64,000 bases of DNA from Tribonema minus (lineage: Eukaryota > Sar > Xanthophyceae > Tribonematales > Tribonemataceae): the NCBI GenBank assembly GCA_017506865.1, contig JAFCMP010000013.1:1054001-1118000 (forward strand), given 5' to 3'. Position numbers and translations under genes: made by a program. Below, piece after piece: positions 440 to 55,500 of the stretch. Below the pieces are notes generated by a model. The model saw only the letters and a list, made by a program, of their open reading frames with translations, was not told the DNA's origin and ran no database searches. The first letter of the stretch is position 1. Each line of letters opens with the position of its first letter.

Positions 440-722
440 CGCGCCCCGTCGCAGCCATCACCTTCAGTGACCTAGAGCTGGTGGGACGCAAAAACATTAC
501 CCACTCACTTTGAGCAGTGTCCTAGCTAACCGTGGTGACTTTTTTATGGCTGTTGACCTGGGCTCTTGGCTTTTTCGAAGTCATTTGGTTGGTCATTTTC
601 AGAACGAGAGCGTTCTTTCCGTCGTACGGCGCAACTTCTCAGATTTTGCTGAGCAATGCCCAATGCCTCGTTGGCGTGTGCCGTGCGCCGTCGCAGCCAT
701 CACCTTCAGCGATCTGGAGCTG
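440..722 (+). repeat. Duplicated 3' intron end and start of HECT exon a
   Basis: The stretch CAGCCATCACCTTCAG followed by GACCTAGAGCTGGT at 453-483 is a near copy of 694-723, where the HECT exon starts. The upstream copy soon runs out of frame. Flanking intron text is also shared (TTTGAGCAGTGTC, TCATTTGGTTG), including an older copy near 155-290. Confidence 0.7.
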
Positions 723-3700
723 GTGGACGCGGAGCTGTACCGCCACCTCAACTGGCTCAGGACGCACTCCGCGGACGGGTGAGCGCTGCCACGCAGTTAG
801 CTGCTGAGCAATGCTGCACGCACATATAAACGCCCATCGCTGAGTTGAGAGCGCTGCCATGCTGTGCGTACATGATGCATGTTGGAAGGCTGGCGCTGTC
901 GTGCAGACTAGATGCATGCATACCGTGCTGTGCGAGCACTGCCGCGCACACATGCCTACTTACATTCTCTGCAGACTTGAGCGCTGCCATGCATACATGC
1001 TGTGCATCTGTGGGACGCAAGCACTGTCGTGCAGAGATGCATGTAAATTCTGCGGACGGACGAGCGCTGCCGCACAGTCGCTAGAGCGCTGCCCTATGCG
1101 CATACGCACTGCGGCGGCGGGTGAGCACAGCGGCACAAATAATGACTCTCAAAGCCCTGAGCCATCGAGGGGGCGACGCTTCCACCGCGTAGCCCTGAGG
1201 AAGAGAGTTGACGTCGGGTACAGTAGTACCAGAGAGTCGACGAGAAGCAGTGGTAACACAGCATGTATCTGAATGCACACCCACTCTGCAATGGGTGAGT
1301 GCCGAGTGCTTTATGATCTCCAATTTAGACGCCAAAGGCAGCCCTGGTCAGTGCATGTGCGGTGTCGGCGGTGTCGCCTGAGCAGTACGCATGTATGTAT
1401 GTATGGATGGATGGATGGCGTTTGGCATGACTTCTCGCTGCGTGTCACCGCACGGCGCCGCTGGTCACCGCGTCCTGCCCTAACCCTAACCCTAACCCTA
1501 ACCCTAACCCAAGGCAGCGCAAGCAGGTCGAGAGGTGCAATTGCGCGGCGGGATTCTGTGGGTCGTGGCAAACGCGAGAGGATGATGCGACACCACTCAA
1601 ATGGTCACTGCGACCCGCCAAGTCAGCGCGAGCGGGTTGACTACATGGTGCCATCGCTCAGTGGGACTCTGGTCGCGGCAAACGCTATCCGAGGTCACAG
1701 CCGGCAGTTTCTTGGCTTGTTTCAGAAAATGCATGCTGAGCACTGCTATTTCTACGCGCGCGCCAGGCTGGGGCTGGACTTCACGGTCGTCTCGGAGCAC
1801 TTTGGCCTCAAGGAGGTGACGGAGCTGGCGCCGGACGGCGCACACGTTGCCGTAACCGACGCCAACAAGCACGAGTACCTGAAGCTGATGCTCAGGCACA
1901 GGTGAGCGCCGTGAAAACTTCAATACCAACCTCACCTCACAGGAGTTGAGGTTGCGTCACCGGCGCCAACAAGCACGAGTTCCTCAAGCTGATGCTCAGG
2001 CACAGGCGAGTTGCTGAGCGCTGTGACAACCTCAACTCAATGTTTACCCTCAACTTCAGACAACTTGAAGATTTTGAGGTCGCCGTTACCAACATCAACA
2101 AGCATGAGTACCTCAAGCTGATGCTCAGGCACAGGCGAGTTGCTGAGCGCTGTGAATACTTCAATTTCAATCTTGACTAACAAAAGTTGAAGTTAGTTTG
2201 AGGTCACCGTAATTGACGCCAACAAGCATGAGTACCTGAAGTTGATGCTCAGGCACAGGCGAGTTGCTGACGCACAACTTCAATGCCTAACCTCAATTCA
2301 CACAGCCTGAAGTTTGTCTGAGGTCGCCGTAACCGACGCCAACAAGCACGAGTGCCTCAAGCTGGTGCTCAGGCACAGGCGAGTTGCTGAGCGCTGTGAA
2401 AACCTCAAATTCAATCTTGACTAACACAACTTGAAGTTTGTCTGAGGTCGCGGTGACCGACACCAACAAGCACGAGGACCTGCAGCTGATGCTCAGGCAC
2501 AGGCGAGTTGCTGAGCGCTGTGACAACATCAGCTTTGACCTCAACGCACACAACTTGAAGCTTGTTTGAGGTTGCGGTGACCGACACCAACAAGCACGAG
2601 TACCTGAAGCTGATGCTCAGGCGCAGGCGAGTTGCTAAGCGCTGCGACAACCTCAACTTTAATCTCAACTCACACAGCTGAAGTTTGTTTGAGGTTGCCG
2701 TAACCGACGCCAACGAGCGCAAGTACCTCAAGCTGATGCTCAGGCACAGGCGAGTTTCTGGCGCGCTTCGACAACCTCAATTTCAACATCAGCTCACACT
2801 ATGCCCTTCTCGCCATCGTGCAGAGTTGTGGGCCGCATTGAGCCGCAGCTGTGGCAGCTGATCTGCGGCCTCTTTGAGGTGGTGCCGCCGCAGCTGATCG
2901 CCGTGTTTGACTACTGCGAGCTGGAGCACCTCCTGTGCGGCATCCAAGAGGTCAGTCCCAGACCATGCGTTGAAGTTGAAGTTGAACAGGTAGTCGATTT
3001 TCACGGATCGTGACTCTGTGGCTTCCGGGACGTCCCCTAGTTGAGAAGGCGGTAGTGGTGATGGTGGGGGGGGGGGGGCGGTGACCCTGGAACCATCATG
3101 CGCAGCAGCTTCACGTGCTGATGCAGACGCACGCAATGCATGCACCTGAGAGACGATGACTGGAAGCGCAAGGCATTGTCAGCAGTTTTCAACAGTGTGT
3201 GCCCGGCGTCGCCGCCCTACGGCCACGCCTCGCGGCTGACGTCGTGTCCTGACGTGAATGATGAGGCACCGTCCATATGCAGTTGTGCTTTGCCGCACCT
3301 GCAAGGTCAGGGTGTGGGGTACTGGATGTCTTGAGTACTTCTATATTGATGGTTGACATTTCAGGCAACCTGTGTCTGTCCCGTTAGCGCTCCGCAGCTC
3401 CTGCATGCTGTCTGACAGAAATGAGTATCATGCACATATACCGACATGGGCAGCAGGGGAGGGGGTGGAGCATGTGATCACACCTTACATTCTCACAACA
3501 CGGCCTGTTGATGAGTACGGCCATATCATGGTGACAGCACCAGCTCTCGTCCGATCGCTGAAGTTAAGCACCCTTGAGCGGAGCTAGTACTACGGTGGGG
3601 GACCACGTGGGAAGCCTCCGTGCTGTACTCTTTTTGGCGGGCGTGGACCATATTCCTTTTCATCTCACCCGTTTACGAGGTGAGGAGCTCATCTGCTCCA

Positions 3701-6371
3701 TGACAGCAGCATGATTTTTGCATGCGGTGACGTGGCAAGATCTTGCTGTAATGGATTCGCTCTGGCAGCAGCATGGTGCAGAGCGCTGCTGCCCGCCATT
3801 AGGCTATCCATTCATCACTGCATCCACTTTATGTCGCGTCATTCAACCAGACGTGTGTGTTGCATTGGCTTCCGCAGAGCGTTGCTATCACCGCATTGAC
3901 ATTGTGGCATCATTCAACCATGCTTGTGTTGCATTGGCTTCTGTGCAGATTGACGTGGATGACTGGCGGCGGCACACCACATATCACGGCGAGTACCGCC
4001 GCCTGGGCGAGAAGCACCCCGTCGTCGCCTGGTTCTGGCAGCTGGTGCAGGTATGTAGGACAACTTATTAGTAAGTAAAACGTGATAAACTATCATGTTG
4101 TAACAGATTGATCAAACGTGATAAATTGTTATGTACAGTAGTAAAAAACTGATGAAATGCGTCGATGACATGCGGGTACAATGGTGTGCTTCTAGGGTTC
4201 TAGCGAGAAGCGCCCCGTCGTCACCTGGTTCTGGCAGCTGATGCAGGTGTGTATGATAGCCGAGCAAACCCTTGGAATGCGTTGATGACATATGTTTCCC
4301 TGAGTGTTATCAACCTGTACGCTGCCTTTTCCTGCATCTGAGCACTGTCATCAAACCTGTGCCGAGCGCTGCTGCCGTTTCATCGACTGAGCACTGATCC
4401 TGATCCTTTCTGAGCGCTGCAGCCTTTTAGTGAACTGCCCCGCTACAAAATCGACCCTGTAAAAAAATAGACCTCCTACTTCAGAAAAAGGACAAAAAAC
4501 TCAACTCAAAAATCATTTTTTTACGTTTTTGAGCGAGCGCTGCCATCCACTGGTCCTGAGCACTGCATTTTGGTGCGCGCGCACCGCCCTTGCTCTCAGG
4601 AGGACTTCACGGCGGAGGAGCGTGCGCGCCTGCTGCAGTTCATCACCGGCTCCAGCTGGTGAGTGCGCTGTCAGCATGCAGAGCTGCCGCCGCGCTTCAG
4701 TGGCGAGCGCGGCTGTCGGTGCGCGCCAACGCTGCTTGGTGAGCGTAGTGCTTCATAGCATGCGCTGTCGGTAGCTTTCGCTTTTCAGCAAAGATTGCGG
4801 CCGCCGGTCCGCGCCAACACCGGTCTGGTGAGCGTAGTGCTTGATAGCATCAGAGTCATCGTACTCTGCTGTGAAGTGCTCGGGGGCAGCAGTGTGGTGC
4901 ATCAATCTTGTTGTGAAACGGCGGGCGCATCTGCTGCAGCGCTCAGCACGGCCGTCAGCTGGCGTGCACGCGTGCGCGCTGTCGGCCATCGCGCTGCGGC
5001 GTCCTGCGCAGCTACCAACAGTGCCTGGCGGCGGGCGTCGTGATTAGGGTCGGAGTTAGGGTTGAGGTTAGATTGGTGCACGTCGCCGTCATCTCTCGCA
5101 TAGATGAGCCCTCCAAATGACCGTATACCTCATGATGTTTCCGACAACTTCAATTCTGTTTTCTACAACTTCAAATTGCTGTCCTGCCCTGCCCACGCCG
5201 CCCTCCTTTGCAGCGTGCCGCCGCATGGGTTCAAGGCGCTGCAGTCCAACGACGGACAGTTCAGGTGCGCGCCGCGGCCGCCCGCGCTCCCTGTGTTGCG
5301 CTCGCATGTGTACATTGCAGATGAATGCAGATGAATGAGACACGTACTGGTCAAGATGATGATCTGAAAGTGCTGTGGTTTCTGGCATTCATGCTGGGGC
5401 TGACGAGTCCGGGGGCTAGCTTGTCGGCCGGGCGCTCACGAGGTGGCCATATCACATTGCATGACAGCATCCAAGCCTCCAATTCTTTGGTCACGCACGG
5501 ATTTTTGGTGCGTAGGAGGATGAGCAGGACACAGTCAGATTTTCATAATTTGCCATTTTAGCAATCATGTACAGTGCCCGCATACTTCAAAGGTGAGGCT
5601 GCCCCCCGTAAGCCTCGCATGGCGTCGATCCCTGCGGCATAATCATCACTTGCGGCCGTTGCTGCGCAATGCTGCTCAAACTGGCTGACACAGACGTCCG
5701 CGCTTGTACCTGCCAGCCTGGTGCACACAGGAGGCGTCACTGAGCTCACGCATGTAGGCGCATGTAGATGCTGTGACATGTCCAGCGTCCAGCGCACCCT
5801 CGGCATCAGGTTGTAGCTGTAACTGCTCGCTGTTGTGACGCCCTTCAAAACGCTGCCGGGCACTCATGGTTACACCTAATGAGCGCGGCGCTGCATCCCG
5901 CGAACGTGCGCTCTCCGAAATGTGACGCCAGTGCAGCAGGGCTCCCACTTGTCTCATGACTGCCACATTGATTTGGGATTATGGCAAGGGGTTGGTTATG
6001 GGTAGGGTTAAGGTTATGGTTCAGATTAGGGCCAGGTCAGGGCCAGTTTAGCTTAGGTGTTGCTCGCTCTGCCGCGCGTGCACGAGCGTTTCCCCACCTT
6101 GGACCGGTGCGCTGCGCGCAGGCCAACGACAAAGCTCGCAATGCCTCGCACGCCCTCTCCCACTAACCCTAACCCTGGCCCTGACCCTACCCCCCACGCG
6201 CTCCGCAGGCGCTTCAGCATCTGCAGCGCGCGCAAGGCCGACACGCACTACCCTCGCGCCCACACGTGCTTCAACAAGCTGGACCTGCCGCTGTACGAGA
6301 GCCGCGCGGAGCTCGAGGAGTGCCTGTCCACCGCCATCGCGTTCGCGTGCACGGGCTTCGACATCGACTGA
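697..6371 (+). CDS. HECT-type E3 ubiquitin ligase, 3' part (C-terminal HECT domain), seven exons, 5' end outside window
   Basis: The product would accept ubiquitin from an E2 on a catalytic Cys and pass it to substrates. Proposed exons: 697 or 710-778, 1767-1901, 2824-2950, 3949-4050, 4600-4658, 5214-5264 and 6209-6371, with phases agreeing at every junction (2/2, 2/2, 0/0, 0/0, 2/2, 2/2). In order they give DLELVDAELYRHLNWLR, then LGLDFTVVSEHFG, VTDANKHEYLKLMLRHR, VFDYCELEHLLCGIQE, IDVDDWRRHTTYHGEY, VVAWFWQLVQ, ERARLLQFITGSS, VPPHGFKALQ and AHTCFNKLDLPLYES. These match the HECT N-lobe end and C-lobe consensus block by block. The catalytic Cys is in AHTCFN (codon 6267-6269). The protein ends FDID. 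About 234 residues are visible; substrate-recognition domains lie upstream of the window, so the subfamily cannot be named. Exon 1 may start at either of two AGs (696 or 709). Several of its exon edges are copied in the introns. Confidence 0.88.
763..1300 (+). repeat. Degenerate copies of the HECT exon a donor region
   Basis: The real junction at 778/779 reads TCCGCGGACGG/GTGAGCGCTGCC. Related strings follow at about 963-988 (CTGCAGACTTGAGCGCTGCC), 1046-1075 (CTGCGGACGGACGAGCGCTG), 1107-1130 (CTGCGGCGGCGGGTGAGCAC) and 1267-1300 (TCTGCAATGGGTGAGTGCC). They are decayed, and none is followed by reading frame with HECT similarity. Confidence 0.55.
1478..1510 (+). repeat. Interstitial telomere-like repeat (CCCTAA)n
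   Basis: Five and a half perfect CCCTAA units lie inside the HECT intron 779-1766. This is the longest perfect telomere-like tract in the window. Confidence 0.95.
1849..2770 (+). repeat. Eight tandem copies (about 120 bp period) of the 3' end of HECT exon b plus its donor
   Basis: A segment encoding VTDANKHEYLKLMLRHR followed by the donor region recurs with its GCCAACAAGC-like start near 1861, 1965, 2094, 2218, 2338, 2462, 2586 and 2709. Only the first copy continues an open HECT exon and has a GT donor (CACAG/GTGAGC at 1902). The other seven read CACAG/GCGAGT, or CGCAG/GCGAG in the seventh copy. Spacer sequence with CAACTTGAAGTTTGT and CTGAGCGCTGTGACAAC is also shared, so the repeat unit is exon end plus start of intron. 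Confidence 0.9.
3513..3630 (+). rRNA. 5S ribosomal RNA
   Basis: This 118-nt sequence has the universal 5S blocks: GAGTACGGCCAT at the 5' end, CCGATCGCTGAAGTTAAGCA in the centre, GCTAGTACT, and GTGCTGTACTC at the 3' end. The two ends pair as helix I (GAGTACGG with the terminal CTGTACTC, one G-U). The AAGTTAAGCA region is the usual internal pol III control region. A run of five T follows at 3631-3635, a standard pol III terminator. It lies in the intron between HECT exons c and d, on the same strand. Loop sequences differ slightly from textbook 5S, so function is likely but not proven. Confidence 0.9.
3630..3635 (+). terminator. Pol III T-tract behind the 5S gene
   Basis: CTCTTTTTGG directly follows the last paired base of the 5S helix I, which is where pol III stops. 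Confidence 0.7.
4200..4252 (+). repeat. Second copy of the 3' end of HECT exon d with donor
   Basis: The sequence encoding EKRPVVTWFWQLMQ and a GTGTGT donor (4247) repeats the real exon end EKHPVVAWFWQLVQ/GTATGT (4051). It is preceded by TTCTAG, a plausible acceptor. It is either a dead copy or a potential alternative mini-exon. Confidence 0.7.
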
Positions 6372-9263
6372 GCGCTGCGCCCAGCCCCCGCAGACGCCAC
6401 AGGATTGCGGCGCCGCCGTGCGATGCAGTAGTGCCGCATGCACCGGCCGCCGCTGCGGCGGTGCATTTGCTGGATTGCACACGAACACCAGCACTGCAGT
6501 GCGTCGCAGCGATGCGAGGGGGGGGGTGGGGGGCGGTACTCGCCGGCGCGCTGGAAGTGCGCGAGCGCGGATGTTGAAGTTCCCGATGCGCCCGCCGTGG
6601 CGGTCAGGCGTCTCCAGCAGAGAGCGCACGTGCTGAGCACTGCTGCATCACGTACGTACAACGCTCGTGAGCGCGCTGGCGGCGAGTGTGCCGCGCCCCC
6701 GCTTGGCTGCGCATCCACGAGGGCTGCCGTGCGAACGCTGCTAGCGCCTTGCGAAAGCAGCGTGTGCACCGGAGCCGCAGCAACGCCTTACGTGACAGGC
6801 GGCGGGGGCGGTGGGTCCCATCGCTGACCACCATGGAGGCAACACGCGGCGTCTTCGCCAGGGACGTTGATGGTACCCGGGGGATCCCCCCCCCCCCCCC
6901 ATGTTTCTTCTGCCACAGCATGCGCCCGCGAGACTGGCTCGCGCCATCAACAAAAAGAAATCCGATTGGCGCCGCGATGGCACATGATGCACTCCCCGCG
7001 CAGGGTGACGCGCGCGCGCCCGCGCAGGTCCCTGGTGGGTGTCGCTGCAACGCGCGGCCCGTCTGTCGCGGCGCGCAGCGATACGTCGTTTGCGCCAGCG
7101 CTCCGCAGCGTGGCAGCGTCACAGGGTCAATCGGAGACGTTGAAGAGGCTGTTCCCCGAGCGTAGCTACGGCTCGCGCATTCCGCTGACTTCTCTCAACT
7201 AGTTGAGAGGCTCTCAATGATGTTCGCCCACAGGTCAGCGCTCAGCACAAATAGGGGCCGCATGTTCACAGATGATGTAGGGTTAGGGCTACGGTCAGGC
7301 GTGGCCCCATTCCAGCGTGTGCGCACTGGCAACTCCACTGTGCTGCATGGCCGCTTGTGCTTTCTCTGCGTGGCTGAGTAGGCACGGGGCGCCGCTGCTG
7401 CAAAGACGCTTAAAACGCAGCAGCAGCAGCGGCGGCGGTTACAGCGGCGGCGGCAGCGTCGCGCCGCCTTTGCCAGTACCCGCGTGCCGCCCGGCGTACA
7501 CCGCAGAATCTCAGACCTTGGACCAGGGGGCAACTGCTGCGGCATTTGTAAATAGAGACGGGGACGCGCGTTGCTGCAGGGAGGTGAAGTGCCTTGAGTT
7601 TGATTGCATAGACGCGATTACCTCCGCAAATCCGACAATGCCTCCGCAAATCCGACAAGCTAGTCGTCTAGACACGTTCCATGTACAAATGCGCGACAAT
7701 GCACAAAATTTTGTGACGAGGAGCATCACTGTTGACTTCGCAGTGATTGGTTTCCCTTCCAATGGCTGGAGCAAGTCGTCTGCTTTGCCCGATACACCAG
7801 GTGACTGCGCTGATTGTGTTGAAGTGGGCATTTTGTGCTTTCTGCGGTTGCCATGCACATGGACTGATTTATGGCCCAGCCTGCCTAGGGCACCCTGCAA
7901 TCCCAGTTGGTGAGCCTTGGTGTACGTTTGCCGCACACAAAGCACTGCTGCTTGGGAATGGCACTCACGGACTCGCCTGCACAGCGTGTGTCCACACAAG
8001 GGCAGTGCTCAGTGCATGCACTTGAACTTCTGATAATGCACTTGAACCTCTTGAGACTTGCGACTGGCCAATTGTCGCATTCATCATCTACCAGATGTGA
8101 TTGCTCTGCTTGCAGTACGACACCCTGATGAACCACAAGTTGCACAACCCCCCCCCCCCTCGCTGCTCTGCAGCACATACCCTGGGCACAAAAGAACGTG
8201 CAAGTCGCATGATGGTGTCATGTGCAGGCGCAAAGTTTGCCGCCTAAATGCGCCACGCGCTGGCATCCGTTGCGCTCACAGACTTTTCTTGGTACTGTAC
8301 AATGACTGTGGTCAGCACTTGAGGAGTCTGCGACTCATTGCAAGACACGCAGTGCTCAGGTTAAAAACACACACAGGAGCAGTATGTGGCATGCATCATT
8401 TTGAAGGCGCGGTAGCCATGGCAAAGCTCAAGAAATGGTGCGCTTGGACACAAAAGAAGCAATGCGCAGTGGAAAACGCAGACACGCTAGATGTCCACAA
8501 ATAAAGGTTGTGCCATTGGGTACACACAGGAAGTCTACTGAGCGTTGCAGATCTGGGGTCTGCATTTGCCCCAGGGAGCTGCACAGGCTGCAAAGCACAT
8601 CGGACGTCACGGCACTGAACACGTAGATGACGCAATGTCGAGCAGTGGGGGGTTGTTAAGCCTGGGAGAGAGCTGCGAAACACTAGACTGGTGGTGCAAC
8701 GAGGCCGGGGTGCAGGGCGTGTAGGGTATGCAAGGTAGGGTATGCCGTGCCCGGACATACATGCCGCCACTGCAAACAAAGCAGCGCCGCCGTCGCTGTC
8801 AAGTGCTGACTGAGCACTGTGTCTGGCAGCTTCACCCGCTGCCGAACACAGAACACAGCGGGGCAAGATCAAGCAAGCCGACAAGCGTGTACATGCCGGC
8901 ACAGCAAGAAGTTACGCGCCGCATCAGACGCCGCGGCGCGCACGCACGAGTGGGCGGAGTTCTTGCTCCTTGGGCCCGGGAAGAGGGGTAGGGGGGACTC
9001 CAGGGGGAGCCAGCACACGCACGCACCACCATCACGTCTCACCGTATACGCAACCCTTTTGAGAGTGCGGCAGCTGGGGGCGCATTGCGTTCCCCCTGCG
9101 CGGGGGCCGCAGGTACGCTGCCGCGAGGGCGCGCATGAGGGGGAGGGGGGGGGGGGGACTCCAGTGTAACAAGGAACGGGAAACGAGCATCACAGTTGCA
9201 GGAGAGGGCAGAGGGCCCACGACGAGAAGAGGGGGGTAGGAGCAGATGCAGGCGACGCGCAAA
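6372..9263. other. Convergent intergenic region, no gene supported
   Basis: This lies between the HECT stop codon and the peroxidase stop codon. It holds poly-C at 6887-6900 and 8150-8159 and short open frames on both strands (such as 7511-7999 on the minus strand), but I see no family motif or convincing exon chain. A Cys-containing minus-strand stretch near 7.9-8.5 kb could be a decayed gene; I cannot name it. Confidence 0.4.
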
Positions 9264-12200
9264 TCACTGCGCAGCCGCCGCCGCCGCGGCCGCATCCGCC
9301 GCCGCCACCGCCGCCGCCGCCGCTGCCGCTGCCGCCTTTACAGCCGCCGCATCCGGGTCGGGGTCTACGATGGCCAGCTTCTTGATGTCGAGGGAGTTGT
9401 TGTAGGGGGGGTACAGGTCCTCCCGATCCCTGTCGGACGGCTCCGTGCCGGCAGGCACGACGAAGTGCGCGCTGACGGCGCGCAGCTGAGCCGCGGACAC
9501 GGCGCGGCCAATGGTGGACATGGCCTGGAAGGAGTCGCAGAACGCGGCCTGGAAGGCGGCGTCGGACCCGGCCCTGCGGGGAGCGAGCGCGCGCGCAGTG
9601 CATCTCAGAATTGAGTTTAACGTTGCCGACAGTTGCATGTTGCAGGACATGTAGTTCTCGGCAGATTCGGATGGCGTGAGAGAGCTGCACAACGCAGCGA
9701 CGGACGCAGCGGCCTGCGAGGAGAAGGCACGTGCCGTTCGCGTCGCAGAAATGGTGTTGAGCATTTCCGACAGTTGTGCCCGAGAGGGGAAAGCGTGCGC
9801 AGGTTCGGTAGGAGCACGGGTGTGTGCATCGTGGTGCAGAAAAGCCCCAGGGTTTCCGCCGCTCAAGCGGAAGCAGATGAAGTACGTTGAACTATAGGTG
9901 TCGACAGAATCAAAGGGTGTTGGAGAGCTGCGAAACACGCCGACGGCGGCAGCGGCCTGCGTCACGGGTGTTGACGCGGTACGGCGCATCGGACGCTACG
10001 CGAGTCTGAGCGCGGTGACACTCCTACTTCCGCGGCGTCGGAGCCGGCCCTGCGAGGAGGACGCGCGTTTTTTTGGCACCGTGCGCAGCGGACATAGATG
10101 AGCCTGAACATGGCGTGGCGGACCTTGCTGACTTGGGGCAGTTTGCCTGAGGTCGCGGCGGTTACGCATGTGTAGTTCATGGTGTCTGGCACCTGAAGTT
10201 GTCCGTGTACGCCGTGAAGCTCTGCACATGAGAGCGAAGTGAAAAATATCAACTTCAACTTCAATTTGCACCTGAAGTTGTCGGCGTACTCCTTGTAGAA
10301 GCGCGCCATGGGGCTCTCCGCGTCCTGGCAGAAGCGCTCCTCCAGCTCGTGCAGTGGCTTGTTGAGGACCTCGCAGCGGCCGTGGCGGTCCGACTCGAAC
10401 CAGCCCGCCTGCTTGGGGTCCCAGTACTTGTAGAACACCTGCCAACGCACCAGCAAATGCAATAATAACAGCAGGTGCCGTTAAGCATCGGTGTCTCCTG
10501 CCCACACACGTGCACTGTGCAACGTTCGCGTGTCGCACTGCAGTCTTGAATTTACGGCCGTAAAGCAAAAACATGAGGTGATGCACGTATTCTCGTTTCA
10601 GCCCGCCTGCTTGGGGGTCTCAGTACTTGTAGAACACCCGCCACAGCCAGCAGCAAGTACAACAACGGAACATCCCGGTCGGGACAGTGTCTGCTGCCGT
10701 ACGCGCATTGTACGGGCAAGTGCACAATGGAAGGTGCGATTCGGATCAGTGTCTGCTGCCAACACACGCACTGTGCGTCGTGTCGCGAGTGAAGCCCAGA
10801 ATTTCAGTGCCTGCCGACAAGGGCATCCCTGTCTGTGGCTGTCGCGCACCGCTTATGCTGGCTAGTCAAAGAGGGACTGGGAAGTGCGTGGAGGTGGGGT
10901 GTTGATGAAACTGAAGCACTTGATCAAGGCTCTGGCATACAGAGTAGGGGTTAGGGTCAAGGTTAAGGTTAGGATTAGGGCTACCCCTGAGCAGAGCACC
11001 TGCACCCCCAAGCACAAACAGCGTGATTGGTGACTGACACGCTGTGTAAACAATGCTTGAAGTTCTTGCTCTTATGGCACGTCATCTCACCTTAACAGAT
11101 GGCTCTCGTCATGAATGCGGCTACGGCCCTCAAGACGTGCAACTCGTACTTCACAACATTCAATTGTATAATAGACCCCAGCTACTGCTGCGGCCCACAT
11201 GACTTAGGAATATGTACTTCGCGATACACAATACTATTGAAACACACTCTCATGGCACTACGGCCCAGACATAAGACATGCACTTCACATCTAACATACT
11301 TCGAAGTACTATCTAAAGGTAATAAATACTCTTGTGGCACGTCACCTCGTCGTAGTAGATGCCGTCGAAGGTGTTGATGGGGCCGCCGGAAAGCTCATCA
11401 ATGCCGAGGCTCGTGGGGCTCTCGTCGTGCACCCTGCTGCGGCCCACCGTGTGCGCGCCCGACAGCGTCGCGATGAGCTTGTAGGGCGACTGGTTGAAGG
11501 CCGCCATGGCAATGTCGTAGAATGCGTACTTTGCAAACTGAGGCCGGCGCGGGCAGAGCAAGGTGTGCATCTGTCTTTAAAAATTCTGCTGAGCAAAGCG
11601 CGCCCGACAGCGTCGCGATGAGCTTGTACGGCGACTGGTTGAACGCCGCCATGGCAATGTCGTAGAATGCGTACTTGGCAAACTTCAAGTAGCAGAGAAA
11701 GTGCGCGGCACAGAACACACTCCCAAATACATACATACCCCTCGCTCGGCAGCAGCGACGTGTCGTCGCACTGGCACACGTAGCTGCCACACATCTGCAC
11801 CAGCGCATGTGCACGCCGCACAAAAACAGCCCTGCACACCACTGTACTTCTGAGTGTACACTTGAAGTACGTGTATGCGCCCCCCCCCGCCCCCGCCCCC
11901 TCACCTGCGCCTCGAGCGCCGCCACGTCGGACGCCTCGCTCGGCAGCAGTGACATGTCGTCGTAGTGGTCGCGCGGCGCGTCCATCACTTCAACAGTACA
12001 TCAGTGTACTTCTGAATGTACACTTGACGAGCGTGTCTGCCCGCGCGCGCACATACGGCAGCCATCGCTCCACGAGTACATTTTAAAATATATCATACTG
12101 TGTACTTTTATTATATTCCACTTGTGGCTGTGGAAATGCCATGTTGTAGGTGTGTCGCCTTGTTCTCACTCTTGGATGTAGCATGCAAAGCTTGCACGCC

Positions 12201-15200
12201 ACACCCCGCCCCCCACATCACCCCCAACAAAGCACCCGCAAGCGACTGTCCCCCACATACTAGCAGGGATACCAAACAAAGCTGCAAGACTCTCCCCCCA
12301 CAGACAGACCCGTCTTAGGGCCACCCAGCTCCACGCAGACTCCATCTCAAAGTTTTCATGCAGGCCAAGGTCACCATAATGGGCCCTGAACTGGAGATTG
12401 TGGCTATCTACGTGAACCCCGATATCATAAAGATAAGCAGAGGGAGTCACTGGGCGCCAGGCGCTGACGCTAGAAAGAAAGGCTATATAACTAAGCAAAG
12501 CATCGCCTCCTTGATGAGCGGGACGGTGGTTCACCGGGCCTCCCATATCACCCCCAACAAAGCATCCGCAAGCGACTGTCCCCCACACACTAGCAGGGAT
12601 ACCAAACAAAGCTGCAAGACTCTCCCCCCACAGACAGACCCTTCTAAGGGCCACCCAGCTCCACGCAGACTCCATCTCAAAGTTTTCATGCAGGCCAAGG
12701 TCACCATGATGGGCCCTGAACTGGAGATTGTGGCTATCTACGTGAACCCCGATATCATAGAGATAAGCAGAGGGAGTCACTGGGCGCCAGGCGCTGACGC
12801 TAGAGAGAAAGGCTATATAACTAAGTAAAGCATCGCCTCCTTGATGAGCGAGGTCACGGCTCACCGCAGGCTGCAAGCCTGACAAGATATTGCCATTTAC
12901 CGCTGCTAGTAACTTGTGGTTGGTGCCGTGGCGTGCAGCCGACTCCGCTTGCTCTCCAAGCACGCCAAGCCGCTCCCTGTCCCTCCTCCGCACGCCAGCC
13001 AGGGCTTCCGAGACACCACCACACGTTTGAAGTTCTCTCGAAGGGGCTACGCACGCTGGCATCACCTGGGGGCCGCTGGTGCTAGCTCCTGCAAGCCCTG
13101 CAGCCCAGCCCACCCACCAAACCAGCCGCATTCGCTGCCACGCCTTTCGGCGTTAACGAGCTTTTTTTTTTACTCTGTGTACTTCTGAGTGTACAATTGA
13201 AGTACGTGCACGCCCCCCCCTCACCTGCGCCTCGAGCGCCGCCGCGTCGGACGCCTCGCTCGGCAGCAGCGTCGTGTCGTCGTAGTGGTCGCACGGCAAC
13301 AGTACATCACGTGTACTTCCGAGTGTGCACTTGAAGTACATGTACGCACGTGCGCGCCCCCGCCGCCTCACCTGTCAGTGTCGATGCGCGCACACACACT
13401 AAAATACATACATTTCTCTTGCCTGAGCTTTGAGTGCTGCTGCATCAGAAGCCTCGCTCGGCAGCAGCGACGTGTCGTCGTAGTGGTCGCGTGGAGCATC
13501 GGCGCGCCCGGGCAGCCAGGGGCACCCCCGCAGCGGCGTCCCCCCCGCGCGCTTCACGGCGTACAGGCCCAGCAGCGAGATGATGTCGGCATTGGACATG
13601 GCGCGGCAGTCGTAGGCGCTGCCCTCTTTCGCGCGGATGAGGTCAGCGAGGGTGGTGGTGGCGGAGGCGTCGGAGGCGCGCTCGCGCTTCGCAAAGAGGA
13701 AGTCGTACCACAGCTGCATGCCTGCGCGCGCAGAGCCGGGGGTGGGGGAGGGGGGGGAGGAGAGGGGAGCAATATTTGTGTTGTGAATTAATGATGACGC
13801 GATGGTCGATGCTTCAAGTACGTCGTAAGGAAGGTCAACGAAGCACTGAGAGAATGTGTTCGTGAACAGATGCTCAGGGCCAGTCTTCAGCCATTGTTGA
13901 TGACGTGTCACCTGCACGCACCGGGGAGGGGGGGGTAGTCTCATTTCACGGTAGTGCAATTGTCGGTAGTCCAAAGTGGTTGATCAGGCGTATCGATGCA
14001 GCGTTGACGAAGTTGTATCACTTCAAATCCTATGAGCGGATGCCTGGAACGCCGATCTGTATGCGAGATTTGTCGGATTTGTCAACGCGTCAGCGGTGAG
14101 CCGTGACCGTGCCACCACGACACAGCAAACCAGTGGCGACTGCAGCAATGCTCACCGTTCTGCTCCCCGAAGACCTGCCAGCCGCTCAGCTTGCCGAGCT
14201 CGAACTCCTGCTTGATGGAGCCGTTGCAGCCGCCGCAACGCAGCGGCACGGTCATCGCCCCCGTCTTGAGACCGCTGCCGTCCAGCGGCACGTTGTATGT
14301 GGCCGCCGTCTTTACGGGCGAAGCGACATACGTGCCGCAGTCGTGGAACGATGCGCGTAGCGCGGGGCCGGTGACCTCGGGGCGCCAGTTGGCGCGGAAG
14401 ACGGAGAGCGCGCGGTTGAAGCACGCCTTGGCCTGCGGCGGGGGAGGAGCAGGGGGGCAAGGGGGGGGGTCAGTGAGTGTGCGTGTTTGGGGTGGGGTGG
14501 GGGGGTTGGGGGGGGGGGGACTGGCGGAAGACGGAGAGCGCGCGGCTGAAGCACGCCTTGGCCTGTGCGCGGGGGTTGCAGGGTAAGGGGCGGGGGGGGT
14601 CAGTGAGTGTGTAATTGAGGGGGGGGGGGGTTCTGGCGGAAGACGGAGAGCGCGCGGTTGAAGCACGGCTTGGCCTGCGAGGGGGCAGCAGGGGTGGGTG
14701 GGGTCAGTGAGTACACATTGGGGGGGGGCAATACTGATGGAAGATGGAGAGCGTGCGGTGGAAGCACGTCTTGGCCTGTGCGGGGGTTAGCAGAGGGGCG
14801 GGGGGGGGGGGGGGGCAGTGTGCACGTGTTTTGGGGGGGAGGGGAAGGGGGGGTGCTGGCGGAAGACGGAGAGCACCCGGTGGAAGCACGCCTTGCCCTG
14901 TGCAGGGGTAGCAGGGGGGGACGGGGGGGCGTGCAAGGCCGCGCTGTTGAAGCTGATGCAGGGTGCTAGCGCAGCGCTGGAGGTTGAAGTATCAGGTGCA
15001 AGAAGTACACAGTCCATCCGCTTAAGTGCCCACAGGCTGTCAGCGGCAGCAGCGCGCGCACGCCATCGTCGCCTCATCGCGTGTGGCACGTGCGCGGCTT
15101 GACCCTGCGAGCACTGCTGCAGCGACGACACGCATACAACGACAGCATGCACACGACACCTGACAGCACACAGCTCAGCTCACGTTGTGGTTGGGTCCTA

Positions 15201-15431
15201 CATGTCGGGCGAACATGAACAGCCGTGTTTGCTTTGGGTCCCTTGGTCGTCCATCTCTGGCATGGTGGTGAGGTATACGGTCTCAGCACCATCCTCTATT
15301 GACGGCGCTACTGCACATGACAAGAATTGCACTCACATTCGCAATGCTGCCGTACATGCCCGTGGGGTCGAAGCCGCCCTTCGGGCAGGTGACGCTCCTT
15401 GCCGCCTGTGCGCCGCCGTCAGGCAGCAGCA

Positions 15432-15463
<32 letters not shown>

Positions 15464-25342: not shown

Positions 25343-25514
25343 ATGGCGGGTCCCAGATTGCGGATGCTGGCGGGGTTGGTGATTGTGGAGTGGAGTTGGC
25401 TGCTGTTACTCGTGCAGTGCGCTGCGAGTGCGAGCTCCAGCTCAATCATCTTGGCTCCAGCGACGGCAGGGACAAACTTGACCATCAGTTACTCTTTCAA
25501 GCTGGGCAACGATG
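25343..25514 (+). CDS. Giant gene exon 1: signal peptide and first A half-strand
   Basis: The ATG opens MAGPRLRMLAGL with hydrophobic WSWLLLLVQCAASA, a clear signal peptide. It is followed by IILAPATAGTNLTISYSFKL, which matches the C-terminal end of the A modules. The exon ends in phase 1 (GAT G/GTGAGT). Confidence 0.85.
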
Positions 25515-46500: not shown

Positions 46501-49500
46501 GACTCGCGCATGTCTCTAGCCGGCTCGGCGACTCTTTTGAAGGGGGATGACGTCACCGTCGTCATCAGCATCGCGAACGGCCTCAAGTCCGCGTACGGCG
46601 TCAGCGCCGCGGAGCAGCCGCTGTTCACCATCACCGAGGTGGTCGGGACCACTAGCGTCACCGGCATCGTTGGCTCCGTCGCGCCGGTACCGTACAGCAG
46701 CGTGAGCTTCGGCCGGCCGGAGGTGGGGGTGCCACTGGAGATTGCCGTCTCCTTCACGCTCATGGGCGCGCTTGCGCAAGGTGCGTGCAATGGTGTGTGG
46801 ATGCTTGATGCACCTCGTGCGCTCACTCGCACAGTCCTGTACAACCGTAGTAGGACAATGTTGTAGAACAGTCTTCCACAGATACAAAAGTTTCGGTGCA
46901 ACAGCAGTCGTCAGGATGCCTCCTGCCTCACTTACCCTTCCCCAGTCCATGCACGCCACACGCAGGCACGACGGATAAGCTGGCGCTGCCGGTAGCGGTC
47001 CTTCGCCAACATCCTCTAGAAAACCAGCGCGATTTTAAGCAATCCAAAGATATTGACAACAACGTGATGCTAATAGTCGCTGAGCCCCCCCCCCGCACCC
47101 CCTCCCTGATGCGCACAACGACGCACCTCACACGCGCGCAGGCAAGACGGTCAAGCTCGCGCTCCCGGGCTTCACCACCGGCGCGCGCGCCGGCGCCGCG
47201 GGCCCCAACGTCGGCGCCGCCACCAACGCCACCACGCGCTCAGCGCTCAGCATGACGAAATCGCCGGCGACGCTCTCCGGCTGGTACGCGGAGGGCGACC
47301 CTAAGACGAATTTTGCGGACTCGGCGTTGTACCTGTACGCCGAGTCGGCGGCGCTCGCGGCCGGCACGGCCGTCGCCGTCACCGTCGACGCTGTCAACGG
47401 CGTCGCCTCTAACTGCGGCCACAGCGCTGCGCCAATATTGAACTCGGCGGCGCACGCGCTGACGGCAGACTATACGCTGAGCGCGGCGCTGGGAATAGCG
47501 ATAACGCCGCTGGCGCGCGCGGTCGTGCGCGTCGGCGCGCTGCCGCTCGCGTGCTACGCTTCGCACGCCGCGCTGGCGTTTTTCCCCGCGGTCCCGCGCC
47601 GCGCGCTCGACGTGTCCTTTACGCTCGCGCCCGGCATGCCGCTGCCCGCGGGGTCCTCCGTAACCGTCGCCATGCCGGGGTTCACGCTCGGCGCCTTCGA
47701 CCGCGCCACGCGCGCGTTCACGGCGGTCGTGCAGCCGGGCGCCGTTGTTGAAGTTGATGTTGAGGATGGCGCGGCGTACGCGGCGACGTGGACGGAGGGT
47801 AGGTATGTACAGCGCGCGCCGGGCTTCGCGGACAGCGTGCTGGAGTTCACGCTGCTGGTGGACGTGCCCGCCGCCACCGTGTTCACGTTCCAGGTGAGTT
47901 GAAGTGCCTCAGCAATGAGTCGAAGTTCCGAGTGTGAGGGGTTCAGCGAACCCCCTTGCGGCGGCAGCATGCCTTGCTGTGCCTATGTCGTGTTTGGCAG
48001 CTGTGGATGGCTTTTTGTTTGGTCAGGGCAGCGGGCTCAGATTAGCAAGAGGAGGGCGCATTGCCTTGCAGCCGCAGCAGCCTGGCTGCAAGGCTCTCTG
48101 CAGTTCTGTGGGCACCGCAATAGCATTTGATACTAACGTGTCCTAGCGCACGAGCAAACAAAACTGGCGGCATCAGCAAGCGTGTTGTATCGCAATGAGC
48201 TCATCTCGCTGAGTGCAATGCCGCAGGCACTTCACGTGTTCACATCACTCATCTTAGCTGACTGGCGCTGACGTGCGCTCAATCTGGATGCTCTGCAGCG
48301 CGCACACGTCACACGCTACTCTTCTAGAGCGCTGAGCAATGCCTAAGCTCAAGACGCGACATGCCCCGCACCCCGTGTGCCGCAGATCCACCAAGCGTTC
48401 ACGTCAGCCAATTCGCACCTGATTGAGCTCTCTCGTTGCCGCTCAAGCAGCGGCGCTGTCGGCAGTGCTTCTAAGCAGGTCATTCTGGCCACACGTACAG
48501 TACAACAACAGATGACATGCCCAACCTCAACCTGTGGCGTGCCCCCTTTCGGCGCAGACCAAGCGCAGCGCACGCATCTCAGCGGCGTGCGGCCTGGAGG
48601 CCAACAGGACGTCCGCCACGTACAGCATCAACGCCGTGGCAGCGCTCGGCGCGCCGGCGTGGAGCGTCACAGATGCGGTTGTGGAGACCAGCTCCGCCGT
48701 CGGCCCCGGGTGCCTACGGCTCAACAACTGCAACGGCCACGTGAGTTGCCGAACTTCAACTGTTTGAAGAGGAGGTCGCGAGCGTGCGCTGCGACAGTAG
48801 CAAGCAGTGTGCCCGATGCTCACCGTGTTAGCGTTGAGCGCCGTAGTTGAAGGTGTGAAAGTATTTCTCCACAAAATTCGCTCACGGTGCTATGTAGCAT
48901 TCATTGGTATTTGCTGCCTGCAGAAGAGTGTAATTGAGTGCCGCAGAGGGCAACTACTTACTCAGCTATGTACATACTGTGCAATTCTTATGCAACAGTT
49001 CACGTTGCGGTATGCAGTGCTGCCATCCCAGGATGGGTCGCTGGCGCATACAAGCTTTGAGTGTTGTGTCAAATTATATCTCTGCCAGACACTGGATGTC
49101 AGTGACCATACTGGTGTGGCAAAATCATGTACTTCAAGGTTTCTGTACCTCTGTGTATGCTTCTATGTATATGGGAAACACATGCGCATTCAGAGGCTTG
49201 TGTCGTCAGTCCAGCTCCACATGCAATCGGCAATTGCTTTCTTCAACCGTTCTGCGTCGTCTTCTGATTGCTTGCTGCCGCAGGGCGCTTGCGACGCGTG
49301 CCTGGAGACATGCACCTGCGCTGAAGGTGAGCACTTCAATCATGATGGAATGAACGATCATGAATTCATGTTCATGATTTCATGGTCAAGCACGGTGTGG
49401 ACTCGCGGATTGCGCCCGCACTCCGCAGCTGCACCAACGCAGAATATTGACATGGTTGCTATGTGTGAATGCTGCTGACGTCACACATAGCCACCACAAG

Positions 49501-52500
49501 GAGGGCTTCAGCAGCGGACACAGTGAGTGCAGCGAGGCAGATGGGCTGACTGCCCACTTGCAGAACCAGTTCTGCGCCCAAGGCGAAACAATTGTGAGAC
49601 AATATCACCGCCTTGGGCAACAGTGGCGCGCTGCTGTGGCGAACTGTGCCAGTGACAGCAATGATGCATTACAAGGCTCTGCAGATACCAGCTGCATGCA
49701 AGGCGTGCCGCGCGCGTTGGCGCCTCCAACTCTCACGCCAAACTTTCACCACTATTCCTCTGCCCCGCATTCCATGCCCCTCCATGAGAGCAATCAGTTT
49801 GTACGATTCAGGTGTCAACACCTTGCCTCAACAGCGGCGCCGCCGCCGTCCTCTGTACCGGATGCCCGCGCGCAGACTACAGATTTACGACAAATCATGC
49901 TGCCCTACCCTAGTTTGCGGCAGCGCTGCTGCGGCGGGCTTCGCCGGTATCAGCAACGCGCTGCAAGGCCCTGGAGACGACAGCAGTGCGCACGCCGTGC
50001 AGTGCGCTAGTATTGCCGTCTTGTGTAGAAGTCACCCCCGAATTCTAGTGAACCGACCAGCTGAGCATCACCGCCACTATATGTTGCTGTTGCCGCTGCA
50101 GGCTGGGGCTCTGCGAGCCACGCCAACGACCTCTCCGACATCGCCCACGACTGCTCGCAGCGCCTGTGCCCCACCGGCGTCAGCGTCTCTGGCACCTTGC
50201 AGGTAACTCCACTGCGAGAGCTGGCCCTGCTCCTGTATTGTGACCTCACACCCCCGAGCCTGAGCTCCGCTTTTCGCTTTTCGTGTTGCCGGGCATCTTG
50301 CAGCTGACGCCGCCTGAAAGTGCAGACCTAGTCCTAGGGTTTGCCACTGTAGTGACCCCGCACCGTAGGCCTCAGCTGTCATTTTTTGTCTGTGGTAGTC
50401 GTCATGCAGCGCTGGAGTACAATTTGCGCACAACTGCGTGCAGCGCCTCTGCTCAATCAAGTTGGGCTTAGCAATGCCAGCATCTGAGGGGAGCCTTGTG
50501 CTGTGCTATGAGTGCACACGCCGAGCCTCGCTGCGCTCAGCAAATTAAGCGCCCGCGCGCACTGCCGTTACAATGACAGGGCGTGGATGACCCCGATGAG
50601 GGGCACGTTCTCGTGGAATGTTCCGGCGCCGGCGCCTGCGACCGCTCCACCGGCACCTGCAAATGCAACCAGGTGAGAAAGCACTGGTTCTTGAATGTGA
50701 CTGAATGTAACTGAACGCAACATTGCTGGCCTGTGCGCGACACTTCTGCACGCACATGTTGTGTGAATTATTCTTGACGGAACCAATGGCGGCTGAACAC
50801 TGCAGCGTACGGCGCTCAAAGTGGACGCGACACATACATGCAGAGCATGTCTTCATAGGGGCAGGAGAATGTGACCATCGCCATGTCAAGGTATGCCTCG
50901 AGGTGTGAGGGAAAATTGCGCCTTGCGTCTCTCACTGCTGCACACCGCTGCCCCGTGCGCGCATCATCATGCATGATCAAACGCACTGCAAAATACCTGA
51001 CAACCATCTCGCCATGAGCTTCAGTGGTGCAGGCAGCCAGGCGGGTAGCTTGCACACGTTTATCCAGCATCAGCGGAATGCCCAGTGCAGGCAACTCAAA
51101 CGGGGCATAAATCATGTGCTCGCTGCCATACTGCACTTGGGGACCTGTCAAGCCAATACTCCCTGTACAAAATCTTGCGAGGTATGATTGCTTGCCACGA
51201 TAGTACGACATACAGACTTTTGAGGCAGGCTCATGCGTGGTCGGCAACAGCAATACACGCACTGCTCAGAATGTAATTGCATCCTCCCAAAAAACAGCGC
51301 TTGCCGCTGATTTACGCTCTCACATTTTTCACGGACCACACCCGCTTCATGTGAATGTCAGCGTGTGCCGTTTACTGAGCGTTGCTGCTCTTGCACGCTG
51401 CTGCAGGGATTCAGCGGCCCCGCCTGCGAGAGACTGGACTGCCCCAACATGTGCAGGTACTGCTTCGCTGTGCACTGCCCCTCTGTGCCTGAGCATGCCG
51501 CGGACAGTAGATGTGGTACTTCTATATACAGACTGGGCGCGACTGTATTTTCTTGCTGTGCTTCGCCACGCTTTGCTGTACATCAACGCTGCCAAGTGGT
51601 AGGTAGGATGACATTGCACAGTCCGGGGCACAGAGCGTCAGCTCAAGCTGGCACAATGTGCAATGACCCTTCCGCTTTGTCTTGATCGCTGTCCACATCT
51701 GGACCAGCACTTTTATGTTCAAAGAGCATTGCAATAATCTTGCACAGCGTCCTTATGGCACTGCGACAGTTACGCATGATGCAACTGCAACGAGCGCGCT
51801 GTCGTGTCTTTGCGCACTGCTCCGCGCCTGGCCCTGAACTGTGCTGTGCTTCTGCAGCTGGCAGGACATGTGGGGGTTACAGCAAGCTTAGGGTTGAAAT
51901 TGAGCTTGACCTCAGGTTTATGTTAGGTTTAGGTCGAAGGCAAGCGCACGCCAGTGCTGCATGCAAGACGATGGCCTCTGAATGAAGCCCCAACTGTTGT
52001 GAAGTGTGTTGTGTGTGACGGGCCAGGACCTTAATGTATCGTTCTGGGCATTGGGATGCCAGTGCTTGCAGCAGCGCTCACCAACTTCCTCCGCTGCAGC
52101 GGCCGCGGCATGCGCACAAGCATGCGCCATTGGACAATTCGCGCAAATGCACTCTCCCACGGAGCCACCTCAGCTGCCAAGTGTGATGCGTGACCTTGCA
52201 GCCGCAGCTGGCACCCACCTCCGTGCAAGCCTTGCAGTCCGCTGCGCCTCTGACGCTTCTCGCTCACCGCGTCCTCCGCTGAACTGCGGACACGCCACAT
52301 GCAGCAGCACGCGCCCCCCGATGATGAGGTACGAGGGCTTCTCCACTGAACAGTCATGTCCAGCTGCGGAGCGCGACGCATGACCTCAAACGGCGCCCCG
52401 CCCGCCCGCGGAGCGCTCATGCTCTCACTTATCCTCCATGATCTTTCGCGGAGCTGCACCAGCACGCGCCATCTGGGCTCGAGGCGCAAGGGCTTGCCCA

Positions 52501-55500
52501 CATTGTATTTTTCAATTGTGAAGCGCGACACGTGACATCACACTCTGCAGAGCGCTCATTCTCTGCTCGCACTTCTCCACGTCTTTGGCGGCATAGCGGG
52601 CACGGCACTCGCACTAGCAGCCCCACCTAGGTGTAAGGCACAAGGTCTCACACCCACTTAACAATCATCAACTGCGAAGTGCGACGCATGCTCTCAACAG
52701 ACGCATCCCACACATCTGCACGAGCATTGCCGTCTGCTGAGCCACTGACGCTTCTACTCTGTGTTTGCGCCCCGTGCTGAGCAGCGGACACGGCACAATC
52801 TTCAACTATGAAGTACGACGCATGCTCTCAACAGACGCACCCCGCACATCTGCACGAGCATCGCCGTCAGCTGAGCCCCTAACGTTTTTCCTCTGTGTTT
52901 CCGCCCCGTGCTGAGCAGCGGACACGGCACAATCTTCAACTATGATGTACAACGCATGCTCTCAGCAGACGCACCTAACACATCTGCGCGAGCATCGCCG
53001 TCTGCCGAGCCCCTGACGCTTCTGTGTTTTCGTGCCTTTTGCTGAGCAGCGGACACGGCACGTGCACCAGCATGCGCCACCTCGGCATGAACAAAGAGGC
53101 CTTCCCGCTCACCTCTGGCAGTAACACGTACGGCTCGGCTGCGTCCGGTGCCGCCGTCGCCGCTGCCTGGGACGCCGACACGCACTACGGCTGCATGTGA
53201 GTGCGCCGCGGCTCCGGATACTCGACGAGTTGTACTCATGACTTCGTAGTTGTTGCGGTCCTGTGGAGAGACCCGAGGGGAGTCAAAAGCTGGCGCAGGC
53301 ATGCTCAGCACGGCACACTGCGGTGAGGGGAAAGCCTTTGGGCGGCGGCACTGCGATGCGCTGATCAAAGGGCTTGCACGCAGACACAAATGCTAAGGCT
53401 GGAGGACGTGCGATCGTGCGCCATGTCAGCGGCAGTGCTCAGCAGCTCTGCGCCCCTGCCGCTGCGCATCGGCGCACACTCCGCGCCCGCAAAAGCCGCT
53501 GTGTTCTCGACTTCCCCGGCGTGAGCGACACTAGCATGGACAGCGTGTGGCGCCATACACTAGCATGGTCGTCAGAGACAGTGTGTGGCGCCATTGACGA
53601 TTACATTAGGGCATGGTCACGTGATTCGTCGCTGTGTATCAACAAGGTATTTACGCATTGCCCCACACATAAAGCTGCGCGTGCAAGGTATTCAGCCGCG
53701 GCACGTCACTCGCCAGAACGCGCGCATTGAAGAACTTGTACTTGAATCCGTGCTGCGGGTGTACGCGCCGCCTCTGATTATCGTGCAGCGCGCATACGTG
53801 TTCTGCAATCAGACGAGGGCTCGTGGTGCTACATATTGTGAGATGATCACCTGCGGCCTCTATGGGTGTGGCGTGCTTGTCGGTGGTGTATTGGGGTATG
53901 CTCGTCTGCAGCCTCCATTGGTGTAGCGCGCAATGGCGCTAACCTCACTGCCTGCCTGCGCCCTTGCTTTCCCGTACGACTGCGCAGCTGCGACAGCAGC
54001 TGGGAGGTGGGCTTTCTACATGGCCAGACTCAGGTATGCTCTTGGTGCACCTTCGCTGCCCTCCCCTTCCCCCCCCCTCACCCTTATTTGTGCTGTAGTC
54101 AGAGTTCTGAGGTCATGGACCGTCTGTAAGATACAGCGGATGACAATAATTACCAAAATGCAACCATGCTCGACGAAAGAGACAGAGAGAGAGAGGGGGG
54201 GGGGGACTCTGGCCGGCAAGGGCGGCCGTGCATAACGCACACGCCGCTTGGCAGGCACGCGCGTCTAGTTAACCCCGACCCTAACTCTAACCAGATTTGA
54301 CCAAAAACCACTCAACCAACCCTACCCCTGACCAGCCTGTGCAGCACTCCAGTCACGTCAAACACGCCTTTCTCTTCATCTTCAGCCAGCAGGGCGTGCC
54401 TTGAACAGTTGTGTGTTGCCAGGCAGTGAGCCTGTGGGTACAGCTGATGGATTGAATTGGAACCTGCGGTACTGTAGCGCGCAGTGCATACCCATCCACG
54501 ATGTTGTGTGACTGTCAGCGCTGCGTGTGTGCACAGATACGTGCTGTTGCAGTCAGTTGCACTATTGATCTGTGCAGGCGTCATCGCACCCGTTGCACGC
54601 ACATCAATGGCGTCAGCCCAGCTTCTGGGCTCTTGCTCGAGTATGAAGGCATGCGGTAGAGACACCCACCCATTAACGTTCACATGGCTCACAGGCGGTG
54701 CCGGACCTCCGCATGAAAGATAGGCCATGAGTGTGTAGAAGTTGATGCCTGAAGTAGTGGGGGGTCAGACGCTGGTACATCTGCGGGTCCCAGATCCGCC
54801 TAGCGTGTGTGGCATGACCAGGGCCCTGACAACGCCATAGCCTTGTAGCCAATTGCACGCTCTACAAATGATGCAAACCCTGCTGCCAGCGGAGCAGGCA
54901 CCAAACTGGCGCAGCTCTGGCAGTCGTTTCGCAGCAGCGATGTCGCTTGCAGCCCTCAATGACTTTTTTCGGTGGCTGCCTTAGCCCGAGCTCCATGTGC
55001 CCCCCGGACCCCTGCATTTGGCCGTTCCCCTCCCCCTTACCTCTTTGCATACCTACATGCTAGGTACACAGCGAGACGATGTCAACGTGAACACCATCAC
55101 AGACGCCCTTGGTTGTGTCTCCGCCGCTTACGTGTTTCTCATCCTGATTCTCGGCCAAGACACTAACCCCCCCCCCCCCCCCCCCCCTCCCGCACGTGCA
55201 CCGCCGCCTCAGGTCAACCTGTTTCAAGTTCACTGACTTTTGGCACAGATGCTGACAGTGACACACCCCCCCCCCCCTCCCCCCCCCCTTCCCCCCTTGC
55301 CGCCTCATCCCGCGCAGGCATCGGAGTGGTTTGGGCCCGACTGCAGCCTTCGGCGCTGCCCCAGCGGTGACAACCCCGACACCATTAGAGATGAGACAGA
55401 CGGCAGTGGCATCAACTGCATGGACAGGTGAAATTCTGGCCCCAACCGGAGCATGTCTCCACTCCTGCTGTTGCACAATGACGCGAGGTCTGCCTGTCGA

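Follow-up and report, generated by a model that had tools for sequence, protein, structure and literature searches.

It is clear that copies of exon ends lying in the adjoining introns are a real and common feature of this genome, and that they represent a known kind of event that is unusually visible here. They are probably the outcome of a widespread local duplication of noncoding DNA, often in tandem, that sometimes overlaps splice sites and involves no machinery dedicated to them. The copies occur widely, duplications are found at a similar density at random noncoding edges, and the decay of the copies is near neutral.

The window, the whole stretch of 64,000 nucleotides that was analysed, is part of contig C13 of a eukaryotic genome of 158 Mb in 554 contigs, and it was compared with a sample of 26 other loci of 10 kb each at preset positions (20, then 6 more). 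Exons were predicted by a splice-aware gene finder, self-trained on the window and the sample loci, which recovers the HECT exons and yields a consensus donor CAG/GTGAGT and acceptor GCAG/G (the slash marks the exon-intron boundary). Copies were detected by self-BLAST and by Smith-Waterman alignment judged against shuffled and reversed introns, with exons of log-likelihood ratio <8 and hits of low trinucleotide entropy excluded. Pfam identifies the HECT gene (PF00632 on the joined exons, E 1.3e-48), the peroxidase (E 8.2e-9) and FNIP repeats close to the right end of the window (E 5.5e-14), while the tested piece of a gene that the first-pass annotation had called PH gave no PH match in Pfam and only a sub-threshold hit to another family. 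Matches to the light-harvesting family PF00504 number 92 in the genome as a whole, each exon being counted separately; for one such piece, from sample locus L028, the nearest among solved structures are fucoxanthin chlorophyll a/c proteins, which we take to be diatom proteins, and the genome may be that of a stramenopile, possibly a Tribonema-like one.

A significant local copy was found by Smith-Waterman alignment against shuffled and reversed introns at 20 of the 110 curated exon edges of the window; this count leaves out eight exons called by the gene finder that were taken to be copies or to lie inside a dispersed element. Nearly every place at which the first-pass annotation had reported a duplicated exon end does hold a diverged copy of a nearby one (Table 1), and the occurrence of such copies on both strands, in unrelated genes and with graded divergence is borne out. 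In the HECT gene the copies proposed near 453 (exon-a start), downstream of the exon-b end (seven extra) and at 4200 (exon-d end) were recovered by self-BLAST, Smith-Waterman or array alignment; the copy proposed for the exon-a end is weak, the segment 1049-1078 scoring 20, equal to the best of 100 shuffles (20). The seven extra copies of the exon-b end have cores at 1962-2706 with a spacing of 104-129 bp, and all seven carry CAG/GC in place of CAG/GT in the array alignment. Conservation among them peaks at the junction, with almost no variation in 24 columns about the donor (p 0.0014 by permutation inside the well-aligned part, in one array noticed post hoc). The exon-b region (window positions 1700-2960) and window positions 1-1000 each have a single match in the genome, themselves, so that dating through a haplotype or paralogue is impossible for these stretches. 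A HECT intron also contains a 5S rRNA gene (3513-3631, sense strand, 106.6 bits).

Table 1. Exon-end copies and related features in the window (coordinates are window positions).
Position	Strand	Feature	Source and support
414-484	+	Copy of HECT exon-a start, in upstream noncoding DNA	Source 657-726; 83% identity; Smith-Waterman 46 vs null maximum 14
1767-1901	+	HECT exon b, source exon, donor CAG/GTGAGC	PF00632 on joined exons; gene finder
1948-2799	+	Array of 7 intronic copies of exon-b end (~56 nt) plus intron	Self-comparison; array alignment
4203-4256	+	Copy of HECT exon-d end	Source 4007-4060; 90.7% identity; Smith-Waterman
4779-4850	+	Local copy of 4691-4761	Intron-only in second gene model; first model placed small exon 4789-4827
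10032-10067	-	Copy of peroxidase exon start	Source 9556-9591; self-BLAST, Smith-Waterman
10189-10219	-	Copy of peroxidase exon end (exon 10272-10438)	Smith-Waterman 21 vs null maximum 12-14
10592-10665	-	Copy of peroxidase exon start containing an in-frame stop and a gap	Self-BLAST, codon comparison
11598-11684	-	Copy of first 85 nt of exon 11346-11537 and its AG	96.6% identical
11737-11774	-	Partial copy of exon-end segment 11931-11968	86.8%; self-BLAST
11905-11985	-	Version of peroxidase exon-end segment common to 13224 and 13422	Self-BLAST
13224-13292	-	Copy of peroxidase exon end (cf. 13422-13490)	Self-BLAST, Smith-Waterman
14524-14932	-	Four copies of start of exon 14156-14432 plus flanking intron	Self-BLAST
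17410-17454	-	Copy of part of exon 17152-17298	Self-BLAST
23197-23280	-	Copy of end of exon 23378-23611 that keeps donor GTGAG	Self-BLAST, Smith-Waterman
22944-22998	-	Second, more diverged copy of end of exon 23378-23611	Smith-Waterman 28 vs null maximum 15
52098-53061	+	Diverged copies and array of 134-bp period over start of exon at 53047	Self-comparison

The peroxidase copies reported at 17411, 14524-14903, 11608, 10600, 13224, 11906, 11745 and 10186 were all found again by self-BLAST or Smith-Waterman alignment, and of the stretch reported as 9700-10047 the copy at 10032-10067 was confirmed. The gene-finder 'exons' at 11905-11985 and 13225-13284 are probably copies themselves. The closely similar pair 11453-11539 and 11598-11684 (96.6% identity) is separated by a 58-bp unrelated spacer. 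The same region holds a dispersed element of about 1.06 kb at 12101-13163, the only dispersed part of 9200-14500 among the genome matches listed. It recurs near full length, at 99-100% identity, in at least 46 further places of the genome, some of them tandem, as a recent burst. Its ends are GAGTAAAAAAAA and AATATAATAAAA, flanked in the four copies that were compared by apparent target-site duplications that begin with GTAC, and it includes an internal tandem duplication of 330 bp and, on the minus strand, an open frame of 328 aa (12166-13152) without Pfam match. Elsewhere in the window, the two copies reported for the end of the second exon of the presumed PH gene (23205, 22945) and the exon-start array ahead of the exon at 53047 were likewise reproduced at the positions in Table 1. 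At acceptor edges of the giant gene, short copies lie at 29621-29673 (score 21 against a null maximum of 15) and 46961-46992 (22 against 12), although their correspondence to the exons A3 and A11 of the first-pass annotation is uncertain. The gene at 27472-47893 has many paralogous exons, 351-530 bp long in 16 of the 18 confident ones, and its tested piece has no Pfam match.

Beyond the window, 13 of the 26 sample loci hold assigned exon-end copies (29 rows), and 13 of 45 predicted genes carry them, beside local duplications confined to introns or to intergenic DNA. The sample clusters comprise 22 that span a junction, 8 with an exon piece in an intron, 13 intron-only, 26 intergenic and 9 gene-edge, and the corresponding window numbers are 8, 4, 4, 2 and 1; a further 21 and 4 clusters with exon sequence in both copies were excluded. 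The arrangement is the direct, short-range, head-to-tail one of tandem duplication, the 26 sample loci yielding 223 local hit pairs in direct and 26 in inverted orientation, and the direct pairs fall to 0 after one 3-mer-block shuffle of each locus. The period ranges from 37 to 453 bp (median about 133 bp). The aligned length reaches at least 0.9 of the period in 41 of 87 clusters (intron-only 8/18, intergenic 14/28, junction 16/29, exon-piece 3/12), and these are ordinary tandem duplications; the rest are partial or spaced. Some young pairs are not strictly tandem and have unrelated DNA between them, which suggests later deletion or templated insertion during repair. The copies sit within longer introns, an edge-spanning copy is present at 39 of the 322 splice edges of the length-matched test described below (about 1 in 8), and about one tenth of the noncoding bases in the loci examined, in this one genome, belong to local duplications that can still be recognised. 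Interstitial runs of TTAGGG/CCCTAA, all short and some of them degenerate, occur in the window at 1478-1510, 16360-16391 and 55872-55916 and in 9 of the first 20 sample loci, and may mark repaired breaks to which telomeric repeats were added.

That all of this is an artefact of assembly or gene finding, comprising false tandem copies or spurious exons within repeats, is most improbable. The exons do come from a self-trained gene finder, some of whose calls are probably copies, and the sequence is available as an assembly only, but most pairs are 70-95% identical, a level that misassembly does not make, the exon half is less diverged than the intron half in 16 of 20 pairs, and the HECT and peroxidase exons match Pfam.

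The first cluster tests hinted that duplications are enriched at junctions. Exon sequence is touched by 30 of 43 genic clusters, compared with 34-42% when tandem duplication is simulated and events internal to exons are purged (binomial p 2e-6 to 2e-4), and an earlier run on 20 loci had given 27 of 38 against 34-37%. If the clusters of these 20 loci are placed at random, 9.2 junction clusters are predicted where 16 of 26 were observed (p 0.005); stricter exon thresholds gave 7/14, 7/13 and 5/9 (p 0.16, 0.04 and 0.03), and rising thresholds in the window gave 8/12, 7/11, 4/9 and 1/4 (p 0.02, 0.02, 0.15 and 0.75). These cluster tests call a cluster junctional as soon as one of its copies reaches into an exon, and visibility is left out of account in the placement test. 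When the partner must be noncoding, 27 of 294 internal splice edges (9.2%) are duplicated compared with 7.2% of random noncoding edges, 9 of 200 random sets reaching the real rate, and with 4.9% of random intron edges, where 0 of 200 sets reach it. In the window alone the length-matched difference is about twofold (16 of 86 real edges, 32 of 344 random noncoding, 34 of 344 random intron; 9 of 172 random edges when length is unmatched), the junction ratio being larger there, where the pattern was originally seen, than in the sample. The exon part of junction copies is also shorter than simulated (median 55 vs 78-88 bp, KS p 1e-4 to 0.016, in sample rows with a period of at most 460 bp), perhaps because copies with more exon sequence interfere with splicing and do not persist.

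In controls where exon labels are taken as random, the enrichment falls to about 1.4-fold. With length matched, 62 of 384 internal splice edges being left out because the adjacent noncoding stretch was too short, near a locus end or of low entropy, local copies are found at 56 of 322 real splice edges (17.4%) and 158 of 1296 random noncoding edges (12.2%), a ratio of 1.4 with a locus bootstrap of 0.92-2.04; for random intron edges (159 of 1296) the bootstrap interval of the ratio is 1.06-1.82. The 26 sample loci alone give 40 of 236 real edges against 126 of 952 random noncoding and 125 of 952 random intron edges, or against 68 of 475 and 49 of 462 random edges when length is not matched. If any partner is counted for random edges, as we think it should be when exon labels are random, the BLAST rates are 9.2% at real edges (27 of 294, gene bootstrap 4.9-13.7%), 9.7% at noncoding and 7.8% at intron edges. 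Donor and acceptor edges are affected alike (15/147 and 12/147). Duplicate coverage with exons masked, over all loci, is 6.8% at 0-30 nt from the junction, 9.5% at 30-60 and 9.6% at 60-100, compared with 8-12% in deeper intron and 11.3% in intergenic DNA, and masked coverage at real edges exceeds that at pseudo-exon edges by less than 2 sd. A spanning copy is present at 36 of 394 real exon edges in the sample and 9 of 98 in the window, against 6.9% (sd 1.1) for random noncoding pseudo-exons in the sample. In simulation, exon constraint alone raises the detection of junction events 1.2-1.8 times, and 1.25 times in the run with the best-fitting identities, slightly below the observed ratio of 1.4.

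The proposal of the first-pass annotation that copying is aimed at splice junctions is not supported, the excess (17.4% vs 12.2%) being about the size of the visibility bias; given the controls and this bias, a strong junction-specific process is not needed. A mutational process that favours exon-intron junctions and is coupled to transcription or splicing, for example through R-loops, RNA-templated repair or nucleosome edges, would fit the uncorrected excess, which is 1.3-2 times in several tests and close to twofold in the window by itself, and exon parts that are mostly 27-85 nt. We nevertheless regard it as unlikely, since visibility bias of 1.2-1.8 matches most of the excess, exon-masked coverage does not rise near junctions and stays within 2 sd of pseudo-exon edges, and the same kind of duplication is found in intergenic DNA. 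A junction preference below about twofold is possible. The masked-coverage, any-partner and length-matched tests are compatible with independence from gene structure; several others, and the length-matched figures of the window, lean to a junction excess. Junction-targeted copying was tried in all by simulation, cluster placement, masked coverage, pseudo-exons and Smith-Waterman edges.

The fate of the copies bears on whether they are used. In the 20 pairs with both halves of at least 20 nt, divergence is 12.9% in the exon half and 21.6% in the intron half, a ratio of about 0.6 that is not far from the 1:2 that a constrained exon and a free copy would give. Codon positions differ at 123/109/179 over about 727 sites each in the 33 countable of 41 pairs (in the other 8, re-alignment landed elsewhere in the array), with a third-position excess (p 2e-6). 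The per-position rates of 0.169/0.150/0.247 include one pair, 41540-41968 against a paralogous exon, that contributes 40, 29 and 67 of the differences; without it they are 0.141/0.135/0.190 (32 pairs), the third about 1.4 times the others, which we infer to be the amount that evolution of the source exon alone would add. Stops are present in 4 and gaps in 9 of the 33 countable copies. Of 36 donor copies 27 still have GT, and of 28 acceptor copies 20 still have AG; left out of these figures are 13 of 77 copies that lacked a clear source dinucleotide in the alignment, among them 5 HECT copies holding GC. One-sided neutral decay at 13% predicts retention of about three quarters, in agreement with these counts. 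Identity between copies is 0.83 on the exon side and 0.78 on the intron side over 17 arrays, some counted from more than one edge, and is higher on the exon side in 14 of 17. Such a difference can follow from choosing hits by their similarity to exons, and also from a constrained source being copied repeatedly. The near-invariant donor columns of the HECT array stand as one exception to the unconstrained copies. Between the peroxidase segment at 13422 and its copy at 13224 the differences fall, by eye, largely at third codon positions, and this pair may be a second exception, as well as one to the absence of whole-exon duplication.

That selection keeps the copies as decoy or alternative splice sites or exons, as had also been suggested, is very unlikely. 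Many do retain GT or AG, the HECT donor columns are nearly invariant and exon-side identity is the higher in most arrays, but the retention of GT and AG is that of neutral expectation, codon positions diverge almost evenly, stops and gaps occur, and the HECT copies all have GC instead of GT. By divergence, codon positions and the survival of GT and AG the copies look neutral; decoy or coding use was tried by codon positions, stops and splice dinucleotides, and near-neutral decay speaks against it. Quite unlikely, too, is a mixed reading in which break repair coupled to transcription or splicing gives an up-to-twofold preference for exon edges and some arrays, such as that of HECT exon b, were recruited as decoys.

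Under the preferred reading of pervasive local duplication, the genome would gain short local duplications, apparently regardless of gene structure, by replication slippage, unequal exchange or microhomology-mediated repair, and would be doing so today. Duplications internal to exons would be purged by selection, while those in introns, between genes and across junctions would be tolerated because one intact exon end and splice site remains, and the extra copies would then decay without constraint. As the source exon is conserved, the exon half of a duplication remains recognisable longest and junction-spanning events are over-noticed, which, with about one tenth of noncoding bases in local duplications, would account for the pattern in several unrelated genes.

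Tandem exon duplication, which can give mutually exclusive exons, also leaves exon sequence repeated in the adjoining intron. The copies described here, in contrast, usually comprise 27-85 nt of one exon end with little sign of coding constraint; their exon parts have a median of 51 nt and the source exons one of 192 nt, and codon positions are nearly even, so that these are not whole-exon duplications. In the tandem-duplication model, as outlined in PMC4974935 and PMC3443670 (Gao and Lynch, 2009; Hellsten et al., 2011), a duplicated segment becomes a new functional intron. That model shares with the present case local tandem duplication within genes that includes splice signals and pieces of exon and intron, whereas here existing introns only gain extra, seemingly unused copies. 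Introners, presented in PMC9860276 as transposable elements that create introns, are similar in being recurrent intron-associated sequences in many genes, but the duplicated units examined here derive from their own locus. A literature search of partial coverage returned no recognised description of exon-end copies in adjoining introns. A striking splice-site pattern can come from unselective duplication together with the better visibility of conserved exons, and work on alternative splice sites, on the growth of introns and on errors of gene prediction can draw on this genome as raw material.
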